A stretch of 54,099 nt of DNA from positions 1 through 54,099 of the IMG/VR virus record IMGVR_UViG_3300037502_000458. The stretch is one strand, 5' to 3'. The notes beneath the pieces were generated by a model. It did no database searches, had not been told where the DNA came from, and saw only the letters and a program-made list of their open reading frames with translations. Source of the stretch: a virus. The position numbers were made by a program, and so were the translations under genes. Below are positions 45,237 to 50,128 of this stretch, piece after piece; position 1 is the first letter of the stretch; every line of letters begins with the position of its first letter.

Positions 45237-45524
45237 CTAGGGGGCATTCCCGAGCAACTGCCTAACCTCAGTCAGCAAATCTGCTTCCGTGAACCCCCAG
45301 TGCTTCACGAATCCCTTGGTTCCCAAACCATGAACTCCGGTGTTGCCACGGTGATGTTCGGGGCAGAGCGGTAAGACATAGTAGTTGCTGGCCCTCTTGC
45401 CCATGCCTGTACCGGAGCGGGGGTGGTGCAGTTCTGCTGGAGTTCCGATATAGCCCATCCTCCGGCAGACGATGCAGCCAAGTTCTGCTACCCGGCTCAT
45501 GTGACGCTTCTCGTCTTTGGTCAA
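45237..45524 (-). CDS. Ref-like RecA-dependent HNH nuclease (95 aa)
   Basis: Cys17-x2-Cys20 (LGCIVCRRMG), AELHHPRSGTGMGKRASNY with the His pair 33-34, and VLPLCPEHHRG with Cys54, His57, His58: an HNH site with structural zinc like phage P1 Ref. The C-terminal GVHGLGTKGFVKHWGFTEAD follows the family pattern. The family cuts DNA at RecA-made D-loops. Start taken at TTG 45524, eight bases after AGGAG and overlapping the stop of the DpdA-like gene; the frame is open further up without a usable start. Confidence 0.8.
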   Translation of the reverse strand: MTKDEKRHMSRVAELGCIVCRRMGYIGTPAELHHPRSGTGMGKRASNYYVLPLCPEHHRGNTGVHGLGTKGFVKHWGFTEADLLTEVRQLLGNAP

Positions 45525-46189
45525 AACAACATCTCCTGACCTGCTTTCACCGCCCATCGGTTAATAGGATTCTTCCCGTTAACTCTCTTGGCAAGGCACC
45601 CGGCGCAATAAGGCTTGATGGCATGGTTCACCGCTACGTTTGTGCTGTCGGCACTTGCAAGCGGCCAACCGTCTTGTCCGAGCATCCTCAGACCATGCAC
45701 CCAAGGAAGCCTGCCAAACGTGCTCAGAGCATTGAACGCCTCATCCATACGTCTGGCCCACCGATCACTACCAACCTGCCAGTAATCGCCAGCTGATCCA
45801 AAACAGACCCTTCCCCAGTCGTCACATAGCTCCAGAAGATAGTCAATCGACAGACCTAGATGCCAAACCGGAATGCCCAATGACTTTGGGAAAGGCCAAG
45901 TCTTAACCATCTTCCGCTGCTGCTCTACAGGGCCATCAATCACATCAGGCACTACCGCCCAGTGCGGAGGATTCAATAACGGATCCACCCATTCATAAAA
46001 GCCTTCCAAATCAAATGGGACACCTCTGGTCTTGCAACTAAAGGCTCCATTGTCAAACATGATGCTTTGTCCGATCTCCAAACACCGGCTTAGAGAATCG
46101 GGTCGAGCATAACTCACACAGAAGTGCTGACCAACCATTGACTCTAACGCCGACTTTGGGGTGATTGGCGTACCGTGATAGTGAATCAT
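45521..46189 (-). CDS. DpdA-like TGT-superfamily protein, predicted deazaguanine DNA modification (222 aa)
   Basis: Motifs in order: FDNGAFS (45-51), WAVVPDVIDG (77-86), IPVWHLGLS (106-114), CFGSAGDYWQVGS (129-141), WVHGLRMLG (163-171), ASADSTN (178-184) and a Cys-x2-Cys near the C-terminus (195-198) with His189. This matches the phage DpdA class of transglycosylases, TIM-barrel relatives of tRNA-guanine transglycosylase that exchange guanine in DNA for 7-deazaguanines such as preQ0. The next gene is a VUT/YhhQ-type transporter that could supply the base. No preQ0 synthesis genes (folE, queD, queE, queC) were found, so salvage is inferred. Confidence 0.65.
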   Translation of the reverse strand: MIHYHGTPITPKSALESMVGQHFCVSYARPDSLSRCLEIGQSIMFDNGAFSCKTRGVPFDLEGFYEWVDPLLNPPHWAVVPDVIDGPVEQQRKMVKTWPFPKSLGIPVWHLGLSIDYLLELCDDWGRVCFGSAGDYWQVGSDRWARRMDEAFNALSTFGRLPWVHGLRMLGQDGWPLASADSTNVAVNHAIKPYCAGCLAKRVNGKNPINRWAVKAGQEMLF

Positions 46190-46650
46190 TTTCTAAATAT
46201 CCACGACCACATCAATCCGCCAATCGTTTTTGCCGCAAATTGCAACAACACAATTACAGGCATTAACGATCCAAACGCTATGGTTGGGAACACAATTGAA
46301 TCCACTAATGCGCCTGATGCGTTGCTAGCATTAGATTTGATCATCCAAGGTTTGTGCCTTAAATAGTGATACACCAAGGCATCAACCACTCCGGCTATAA
46401 CAAACGCCGCTACCGAAGCAATAGCAATCTTTCCCGAAGCAGGATTCAAAATAAAAGATATCAACCCAGCACTAGCAATCAACCCAAACATTCGTAGCCA
46501 AACTTTGTCTTGCCACCTTTCGTGAAGTTTGTCTCGGATCACCAAATCCAACCCTATCAAAAAGAAAGCATTGATTGGACTGAACCACGGACCTAACCAA
46601 GCAACCAAGAGATTTGCCGCCACCAAAGCGGAGATATATGCGATAACCAT
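46186..46650 (-). CDS. VUT/YhhQ family 7-deazaguanine precursor transporter (154 aa)
   Basis: Short membrane protein with about five to six helices: VIAYISALVAANLLVAWLG, PINAFFLIGLDLVIRDKLHE, MFGLIASAGLISFILNP, IAIASVAAFVIAGVVDALVY, and the end TIAFGSLMPVIVLLQFAAKT. The IGLDLVIRDKLHERW turn and SNASNASGALVDSIVFPTIA are signatures of the VUT/COG1738 family, whose member YhhQ imports preQ0/preQ1. Gene starts four bases inside the preceding control region and overlaps the DpdA-like gene by four bases, so both are co-translated. Confidence 0.75.
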   Translation of the reverse strand: MVIAYISALVAANLLVAWLGPWFSPINAFFLIGLDLVIRDKLHERWQDKVWLRMFGLIASAGLISFILNPASGKIAIASVAAFVIAGVVDALVYHYLRHKPWMIKSNASNASGALVDSIVFPTIAFGSLMPVIVLLQFAAKTIGGLMWSWIFRK

Positions 46651-46659
46651 TGTTTTCTC

Positions 46660-46989
46660 CTAAAGAGTTACAGACACCTGTGATCTGGCGGTAGCTTGTT
46701 CTGTTCTCCAGACATCCACTCTCATCCTTGCGGCCTCTAAGAGCCACTTCAACTCTTCTTCCTGTTTTGTGGCTTCTTTGATTCCTTTCAGGATCTCAAG
46801 GTAGTCAGGGTCGCTGTAGGCTTCTCGCTCTTGAGCGTTCACCGCTTCATAACCTCTGGCTAAAGCATCTTTCATCAACAACGCTTTCTTCGATTTACGG
46901 AACTCTTCAAGATATAGCCTGTTAGCTTTAGCTTGTGCGTACTTCACCGAGTTTTGAATGATGTAGTCAATCGCTTTGTGCGGGTCCAT
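46660..46989 (-). CDS. Conserved coiled-coil phage protein (109 aa)
   Basis: MDPHKAIDYIIQNSVKYAQA, then KANRLYLEEFRKSKKALLMK and AYSDPDYLEILKGIKEATKQ; an all-alpha family frequent in phages and located with recombination genes such as rusA. Role is not known to me; single-strand annealing or gam-like helper has been suggested for similar neighbours but is not supported here. Overlaps rusA by 23 bases. Confidence 0.7.
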   Translation of the reverse strand: MDPHKAIDYIIQNSVKYAQAKANRLYLEEFRKSKKALLMKDALARGYEAVNAQEREAYSDPDYLEILKGIKEATKQEEELKWLLEAARMRVDVWRTEQATARSQVSVTL

Positions 46990-48539: not shown

Positions 48540-48939
48540 ATCTGGTCGCCTCATCAATCCGCTCATATGCCAATCTCATCCGCTCTCGGTCACTCTCCGA
48601 AGGGTTTTTACCTTCCGCTATGTCAAGGGCTACGATCTGGACAACTAGAGCCTCGAAAGCAATGATCTTCAAAAGGTCTGAGGAGTAGAAGGGACGCTTC
48701 AACGACGGTTTGGAGGTTTCTACGCCTTCTGTTGGGGGGAACAAATCCCCGAGGCTCATCCCAACAGATTCGACGATCTGGTGAACGTCACACCCCGCGA
48801 AGCAGTGGAGGAGGATCGTCCCATCAGACTCGCGGATCGCCAGCGAGGGCGAGCGGTCGGGGTGGGCGGGGCAGCGGGCCGTGTATGACCCTTTAGAACC
48901 CCTCACTCCTTTAAGACGATCCAGTAGGGTCTCAATCAT
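48532..48939 (-). CDS. CHC2-type zinc-binding primase fragment (135 aa)
   Basis: MIETLLDRLKGVRGSKGSYT, ARCPAHPDRSPSLAIRESDG, then TILLHCFAGCDVHQIVESVG: a CHC2 zinc ribbon (Cys-x2-His and Cys-x3-Cys) that reads template sequence for primer start. The TOPRIM catalytic part is absent; the remainder is helical (LLKIIAFEALVVQIVALDIA). It could be a stand-alone zinc subunit of the helicase, with catalysis from host DnaG or an unrecognised partner. Start ATG 48939 after AGGAG, four-base overlap. Confidence 0.82.
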   Translation of the reverse strand: MIETLLDRLKGVRGSKGSYTARCPAHPDRSPSLAIRESDGTILLHCFAGCDVHQIVESVGMSLGDLFPPTEGVETSKPSLKRPFYSSDLLKIIAFEALVVQIVALDIAEGKNPSESDRERMRLAYERIDEATRYV

Positions 48940-49631
48940 GATCGACTCCTGTACCAAGGAACCTCCGGTTCGGACTTCTTACCTTCACGTTCCAAGTACC
49001 ACTTGGCGTTAAACCCCTGCCAATTTCTCTCAAGGGCGTAGGAAATTGCTTCCTCAAGACTGATCCCAGCTTCTTCAGCCTGTTTCCTATAACGGTCCAT
49101 CACCGTCACGGTAACAACTGCCTTCTTCTCCTTCCTAGCCTTTAGGAAGTCCTCCCATACCTGTTCCGATACATCTTCAGGTCTTGGGAAGGAGGCTTCT
49201 TTCTTCTTTGGTTCTTGGTTATTGGTTAACGGTTTACGGTTTGCATTAGGGGGTTCATAGGGTGGCGATAGGGGGGCTATACCCTCCCCATGCCCACCCT
49301 TAGCCCACCTTATAGCCGCCCCTTTCTTCCCCCCTTCCCTCATGTCTTGAAACTTAACGATTTCTTCATCGCATCGTTTCATTCTCCAAGAATTGTCAGG
49401 GACACCCCCTCCCCCCTCCTCCTTCTGGAAAAATTCTTCTAGGATGGTGGCGACGGCCTTCGTCTGGTCTCGCAAACGGATCTGTCGAGCCAGATGTTCA
49501 GGGGTTCCCTTGAGGGGTTCTTCGTGGAGGTAGTACAGGTCTATCAACCGCCTGTAGACCAGATCCTCCATGGGCGACAGGTGCGCTGTATGAGCGTAGT
49601 AGTCGCCGATATGAAACATGAACTTATGCAC
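48936..49631 (-). CDS. DUF1376 (YdaU-like) replication protein (231 aa)
   Basis: N-terminal DUF1376 domain: FHIGDYYAHTAHLSPMEDLV then YRRLIDLYYLHEEPL, as in phage replication initiators, followed by a basic low-complexity linker (PPNANRKPLTNNQEPKKKEA) and a C-terminal helical domain (VWEDFLKARKEKKAVVTVTV, then SYALERNWQGFNAKWYLERE). That C-terminal motif also occurs in other replication-associated phage proteins. Start GTG 49631 (VHKFMFH, GAGG eight bases before); ATG 49619 is the alternative. Four-base overlap with the primase gene. Confidence 0.7.
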   Translation of the reverse strand: MHKFMFHIGDYYAHTAHLSPMEDLVYRRLIDLYYLHEEPLKGTPEHLARQIRLRDQTKAVATILEEFFQKEEGGGGVPDNSWRMKRCDEEIVKFQDMREGGKKGAAIRWAKGGHGEGIAPLSPPYEPPNANRKPLTNNQEPKKKEASFPRPEDVSEQVWEDFLKARKEKKAVVTVTVMDRYRKQAEEAGISLEEAISYALERNWQGFNAKWYLEREGKKSEPEVPWYRSRS

Positions 49632-49810
49632 AACACAATCCTCTCTGGCGGACAGCCTCAGGGTGAGAATTCCGAGGCGGGCCACCCCATTGCAGGGCTG
49701 ATGTTCGGGCCTGAGGCCGTCCAACAGAAAGGACTGCTTCAAACCCACCTTACGCGCCTCTCACAGCGCCCCCCAGTTCAGGACGGGAGCATCCTTGCGT
49801 GAATCCTACA

Positions 49811-50128
49811 TCAAGCCTTTGGTGGCCGTCCACCCTTGGCTCCATTTTTTTTGTTCAGAGCCGCCTTCTTGGTCCACTTCTCCAAGTCAATCTGTAGTGC
49901 ATCGTTCACATACCCCTCTGGAGTAGCCCTGAAGTAGTCTCTGAGAACAGGTTCGATACAGTCCCAATCCAAACCTACTTGTTGTTCCAATTCGTAATGA
50001 TCCAGAGTCAGAGGACCTTCCCTCATGTAATACAAATCAATCATTCTTCTAAAAGCCAGATCCTCTGCGTCAGGTAACTCTTTAGTAGTTTGGAGATACT
50101 CAGCGACGTTGAACTTATACCATTTCAT
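49811..50128 (-). CDS. Second DUF1376-type protein (105 aa)
   Basis: MKWYKFNVAEYLQTTKELPD, AEDLAFRRMIDLYYMREGPL, C-terminus NKKNGAKGGRPPKA. It matches the first DUF1376 gene in 'xxxxYxxxTxxLxxxEDLxxRRxIDLYYxxExPL' but lacks the linker and C-terminal domain; the ending KGGRPP is AT-hook-like. The 179-base gap to the next gene (49632-49810) has a short GGCCT-G-AGGCC dyad and no other coding frame I trust. A duplicate that lost its C-terminal part or a DNA-binding subunit. Confidence 0.65.
   Translation of the reverse strand: MKWYKFNVAEYLQTTKELPDAEDLAFRRMIDLYYMREGPLTLDHYELEQQVGLDWDCIEPVLRDYFRATPEGYVNDALQIDLEKWTKKAALNKKNGAKGGRPPKA

Follow-up and report, generated by a model that had tools for sequence, protein, structure and literature searches.

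A short VUT-family transporter gene beside a DpdA-like gene in phages: a probable minimal, import-fed module for 7-deazaguanine modification of DNA

Phages with a small stand-alone DpdA and no preQ0 synthesis genes, such as the Group-3 DpdA-only phages (Hutinet et al. 2019, PMC6884629) and Pantoea phage MED16 (PMC8306585), have already been described, as have phage homologues of the transporter YhhQ. Whether the DNA of such DpdA-only phages is modified had been hard to predict, and the source of the precursor was obscure. The IMG/VR viral record IMGVR_UViG_3300037502_000458, analysed here over its full 54,099 bases (the window), resembles these phages in carrying a small stand-alone DpdA-like gene without preQ0 synthesis genes, but, unlike MED16, it has a gene of the VUT family directly beside it. 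The locus raises the question of whether the transporter supplies the enzyme with its base, and whether the two together modify DNA.

Layout of the locus

The lengths, coordinates and four-base overlap reported for the two genes by an earlier sequence-only reading are exact (Table 1). The VUT gene lies upstream in transcription and the DpdA-like gene downstream; at the junction, agaaaATGAttc, the stop codon TGA of the first overlaps the ATG start of the second. The VUT gene is preceded by a good ribosome-binding site, ggagaaaacaATG. The pair is placed after a series of minus-strand replication genes that encode primosomal/DUF1376 proteins, a primase zinc-finger protein, a DnaB-type helicase, and RusA. 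Within this replication block, two neighbouring primosomal/DUF1376 proteins (48936-49748 and 49811-50128) match the same PHROGs, the second with its N-terminal part only, an apparent duplication or split gene. The record had been taken for an apparently complete genome, a description that finds no support, as it is classed as linear without end repeats; a search of the record for a terminal repeat found none, and its completeness is unproven.

Table 1. Features of the VUT/DpdA locus and its immediate surroundings in the window
Feature	Positions	Strand	Basis or remark
RecA-dependent/HNH-type nuclease	45237-45557	(-)	start overlaps the end of the DpdA-like gene by 37 bases
DpdA/TGT-like base-exchange enzyme, 222 aa (putative)	45521-46189	(-)	phrog_887, MED16 DpdA homology, TIM-barrel model; second gene of the pair
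ATGA stop/start overlap of the VUT and DpdA-like genes (putative translational coupling)	46186-46189	(-)	read from the sequence
VUT/COG1738 (YhhQ-family) short six-helix transporter, 154 aa (putative)	46186-46650	(-)	PF02592, phrog_4899, AlphaFold2 model, hhalign to E. coli YhhQ; first gene of the pair
Ribosome-binding site AGGAGA upstream of the VUT start (putative)	46656-46661	(-)	read from the sequence; assigned by position and motif
Protein without known function, 109 aa	46660-46989	(-)	upstream of the VUT gene in transcription

Family and fold of the two proteins

The VUT-family signatures noticed earlier in the 154-aa protein are borne out by matches to the Pfam family Vut_1 (PF02592; E 1e-12, 49 bits against a gathering cut-off of 27.2) and to phrog_4899 (E 9.5e-44), and by hhalign, which aligned its profile with that of E. 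coli YhhQ (E 3.7e-7), a protein that transports preQ0 (Zallot 2017, cited in PMC6884629). The Pfam family and a conserved core are common to the window protein and E. coli YhhQ (COG1738), whereas the latter has 221 aa and the phage form lacks its longer loops and extra segments. The NCBIfam models for queuosine-precursor transporters remain below their cut-offs (TIGR00697, 36.9 of 50.95 bits; PRK11212, 31.8 of 252 bits), and judged by its sequence the window VUT is a member of a divergent short subfamily rather than an equivalog. Its AlphaFold2 model (pLDDT 94.7) consists of six long helices and weakly resembles the S-components of ECF transporters (5edl, TMq 0.56, Foldseek E 1.8). This likeness to binders of diverse vitamins, together with a match to the characterised YhhQ that is partial and below the equivalog cut-offs, would also suit a protein that imports some other base or a pterin-like compound, or that works as an exporter, with the link to DpdA reflecting a different chemistry. 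We regard this as quite unlikely, since the genes that adjoin short VUTs in cellular genomes (QueC, QueF, and dpd genes) are all 7-deazaguanine genes.

Bacterial short VUTs of the same type directly adjoin QueC, in a neighbour cluster of seven members, and are found near QueF. They also occur beside DpdE and DpdF in dpd islands, the bacterial systems for 7-deazaguanine modification of DNA (Thiaville 2016; PMC11888242), about 9% of which are reported to contain YhhQ (GATOR-GC preprint PMC11888242). We found them in two such islands, one in Paraburkholderia (L079, 5932-10452; DpdE, E 2e-299) and one in Acinetobacter (L122, 225-6284; DpdE and DpdF). Both genomes encode QueC, no second VUT was detected in either, and the Acinetobacter island VUT clusters with that of Acinetobacter phage AB3P2 (support 87). 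The bacterial islands differ from the phage pair in that they carry DpdB, DpdC, and restriction genes, none of which accompanies the pair. These neighbourhoods tie the transporter type to 7-deazaguanines, and especially to DNA modification, independently of the phages, and the shared transporter connects the phage modules with the bacterial islands.

The 222-aa protein matches phrog_887, annotated in PHROGs as “queuine tRNA-ribosyltransferase” (E 3.8e-43), and is 37–40% identical to the DpdA of MED16 (tblastn E 8e-36), which has been related by HHpred to the Thermotoga TGT (PMC8306585). These two matches uphold its assignment to a DpdA/TGT-like family; searches against Pfam, including its TGT family, and NCBIfam gave no match. 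The sequence blocks named in the earlier reading are real and hold active-site-like residues, as D46, G48, D82, H110, G131, S132, H165, R168, D181, and S182 are invariant across 46 relatives. The AlphaFold2 model is a TIM barrel (pLDDT 90.1, pTM 0.88) in which D46, H110, G131, H165, and D181 lie in strands or at strand ends, and by analogy the invariant D46, D82, and D181 would include the counterparts of the two catalytic Asp residues that TGT has at its barrel-strand ends. The alignments used for modelling were composed of sequences from the window and from viral-contig and genome-contig loci.

A check of the structure for a TGT fold had been proposed from the sequence, and the outcome agrees with it in that the barrel is modelled confidently and the best TM-scores in the PDB belong to tRNA-guanine transglycosylase, that of Z. 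mobilis. The TGT structures were returned by Foldseek with probabilities of mostly 0.9–0.99, TM-scores of about 0.5–0.54, and an E-value of 0.016, while no PDB entry matched with E < 0.001; transaldolases head the list by E-value, but their TM-score of 0.40 is below that of TGT. The model is thus supportive of a TIM-barrel TGT-like fold, not decisive. Sequence searches of the PDB with the protein or its profiles matched no solved TGT, and hhalign of the profile against a thin two-sequence TGT alignment aligned the DNGAF/DSGGF motif alone, so that the TGT homology rests on PHROGs, the published link through MED16, and the fold.

The C-terminal zinc domain of TGT, with its Cys-x-Cys-x2-Cys...His site, is absent from the window protein. 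The C-terminal Cys-x2-Cys to which the sequence-only reading drew attention is present, yet in alignment A2 it is confined to the protein's own clade and is therefore not the TGT zinc site. The missing domain bears on whether the pair might instead serve tRNA, as a compact queuosine salvage by which host or phage tRNA would gain more Q-type modification, to the benefit of translation during infection. The PHROG name of the enzyme would fit such a role, as would the part that bacterial VUT/YhhQ proteins play in tRNA Q salvage (PMC11130926) and the TGT that adjoins VUT-family genes in Methanothrix. We nevertheless consider it very unlikely: besides the loss of the zinc/C-terminal domain, modification has been found in the DNA of the relative MED16, the DNA-modifying dpd islands contain this type of short VUT, and the hosts examined already encode QueC.

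Linkage and re-pairing across phages

The pairing is not peculiar to the window. Three scans of IMG/VR, each with a different phage VUT clade as the sole query, found a DpdA-like gene adjacent at 45 of 45, 70 of 80, and 76 of 79 loci, counts that overstate independence as many of the loci are near-duplicates. In the reverse scan with DpdA, VUT was present at 68 of 76 loci, and at five of the 76 viral DpdA loci there was neither VUT nor the third gene described below (phrog_37496). As a control, the same DpdA was found at only four of 70 short-VUT loci drawn from 84,980 bacterial and archaeal genomes. VUT–DpdA linkage is near-obligate across phages, far beyond chance. Adjacent pairs are also found in isolated phages, among them PEAT2, Tbat1_6, AB3P2, Phc, Lg3, RCIP0319, Pam5, RHph_N3_2, and RHph_X2_30; the hosts of pair-bearing isolates are Pectobacterium, E. 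coli, Enterobacter, Acinetobacter, Rhizobium, Sinorhizobium, and Pseudanabaena. Phage MW202545, which has a 66% identical terminase, carries no copy of the pair in the region examined, and the pair accordingly looks accessory.

Thirteen VUT loci had no adjacent DpdA. Six of these adjoin another protein with TGT-like motifs and a seventh (L235) has one 411 bases away, while two of the three exceptions in clade C (L330 and L338) are placed close to the end of a contig or come from a very short fragment. The TGT-like neighbours at L228, L235, L240, L264, and L274 belong to phrog_1279 (“queuine tRNA-ribosyltransferase” in PHROGs) or to phrog_15826, a family without annotated function whose match to the window DpdA is sub-significant (E 0.07) and which is probably another DpdA-like family. 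The loci at which VUT accompanies other TGT-like families are L228 (3387-4001), L235 (2892-3575), L264 (3321-4010), L274 (3084-3944), L240 (381-1355), and L077 (876-1478). In Tumebacillus permanentifrigoris (L086, 1292-2441), a 222-aa protein encoded directly upstream of a short VUT has a marginal match to phrog_887 (E 0.008) and is possibly a further, distant DpdA-like partner.

The linkage could in principle be a matter of common descent alone. On a tree of 79 dereplicated DpdA proteins, the gene-order states (VUT first, DpdA first, or none) required 17 parsimony changes and the six VUT clades 12, numbers to be read with the caveat that the trees are quick ones with many weakly supported branches. 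Mere common descent was rejected on the strength of these order flips and clade swaps, which indicate that the partnership has been re-formed repeatedly and not merely inherited. Overall distances are nonetheless correlated (Mantel r 0.44; 0 of 2000 permutations).

A third component, a family of about 85 aa (phrog_37496), adjoins DpdA at 25 of the loci first searched. A scan with this family alone found DpdA adjacent at 22 of 22 loci, 15 of which also had VUT nearby. Examples are L012 (3060-3305), L063 (1581-1841), and L203 (6633-6965), with 22 further loci, and the gene sometimes stands in the place of VUT beside DpdA. Cys-Pro, Tyr, two Glu, and one His are invariant in the family. The best PDB match of a 21-row profile was the archaeosine synthase QueF-Like (5jyx, E 0.0023; next match 0.51), hhalign aligned the family to QueF with E 1.3e-4 and a probability of 54%, and, in a ranking of 19,606 ORFs, four of five cellular QueFs came within the first 60 non-members. 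The QueF-like match was not recovered with a smaller profile of four rows, and Pfam QueF did not match the protein. With this modest support, a mini-QueF/QueF-L enzyme that tailors the nitrile is a possible identity for the family, which we offer as a lead. The gene is absent from the window.

Precursor supply and the role of the pair

It had also been claimed that the genome holds no synthesis genes. Within the window record, whose completeness bounds the statement, this is upheld for QueC, QueD/PTPS, FolE, and QueF, each of which was searched for and not found; QueE, covered by the general Pfam scan only, was not among the 25 of 27 families listed. Neither QueC nor QueD was found above cut-off in 34 phage records, 13 from isolates, that have a DpdA of this family. 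The sequence-only reading went on to propose that the phage imports the precursor because it does not make it, an argument that loses force here: QueC is encoded in all four genomes in which the module forms part of a prophage or a prophage-like locus, and two of these hosts also have a long VUT of their own. A lack of preQ0 synthesis in the host was considered as the reason for the transporter and rejected, given the QueC genes in every prophage-bearing genome tested. As these hosts have QueC, the importer probably tops up the host 7-deazaguanine pool.

Taken together, we put at roughly three in four the probability that the pair is a minimal, import-fed module for 7-deazaguanine modification of DNA; the DNA substrate, the imported ligand, the final base, and the protective effect are the parts of this reading that we infer. 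The short VUT would reside in the inner membrane of the host and import a 7-deazaguanine base (preQ0 or preQ1) that supplements the host supply. The DpdA-like TIM-barrel enzyme would then swap guanine in phage DNA for the imported base, probably at selected sites, with D181 or D46 as the Asp nucleophile by analogy with TGT. Since the window has no QueF-like gene, the first product would be expected to be dPreQ0, which host or other activities might convert to dADG, as in the DpdA-only phages, MED16, and Salmonella phage 7-11, the last a dADG case cited beside MED16 (PMC8306585).

The benefit would probably be that phage DNA escapes, in part, the nucleases that recognise sites with guanine. Restriction is indeed blocked by known phage DpdA systems whose modification level is high (PMC6884629), and by analogy protection by the window pair is plausible. 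In MED16, the closest relative to have been tested, dADG amounts to only ~0.13% of G and most restriction enzymes tested were not blocked (PMC8306585), and in the window the next gene, a RecA-dependent/HNH-type nuclease, overlaps the DpdA-like gene; both would suit a low-level, site-specific modification that serves packaging, the timing of gene expression, or the marking of DNA for phage nucleases rather than anti-restriction. We judge such a role somewhat unlikely, as the highly modified systems argue against it and neither this nuclease nor any other is conserved as a DpdA partner across loci.

Among known systems, clusters of the Seuratvirus/EC151 type (PMC8310023) likewise combine DpdA and a preQ0 transporter within one phage cluster, but they also encode folE, queD, queE, and queC, in contrast to the minimal pair of the window, for which no synthesis gene was found. 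A 2019 survey saw no correlation of phage YhhQ homologues with any phage group (PMC6884629), whereas VUT is found here near-obligately beside this DpdA family. We did not find the near-obligate pair, the swapping of partners (VUT clades and TGT families), or the third gene in the open-access literature, although priority is uncertain.

A near-obligate importer partner gives the DpdA-only group a testable salvage logic, and makes phages that probably have 7-deazaguanine DNA easy to recognise from their genomes, on hosts as different as enterobacteria, Acinetobacter, rhizobia, and cyanobacteria. Two phage families that lacked an annotation also gain a proposed role: that of the importer for phrog_4899 and, as a possibility, that of a QueF-like tailoring enzyme for phrog_37496. 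More tentatively, and at rather less than even odds, the pair may be one form of a portable salvage cassette that is widespread in phages, in which a short VUT is repeatedly re-paired with any of at least three TGT-like families and, optionally, phrog_37496; such a cassette would provide 7-deazaguanine DNA without synthesis genes, the third gene setting the final base (e.g., dG+ or an amide).

Two further loci are worth recording in their own right. The contig L048 has one VUT/DpdA pair on each strand; the two are separate and belong to different clades. In Caulobacter phage DMCA (L071, 4705-5723), a gene for a 98-aa PTPS/QueD-like protein, at the Pfam cut-off and just below cut-off in the genome search, lies directly upstream of the DpdA-like gene, with no VUT there.
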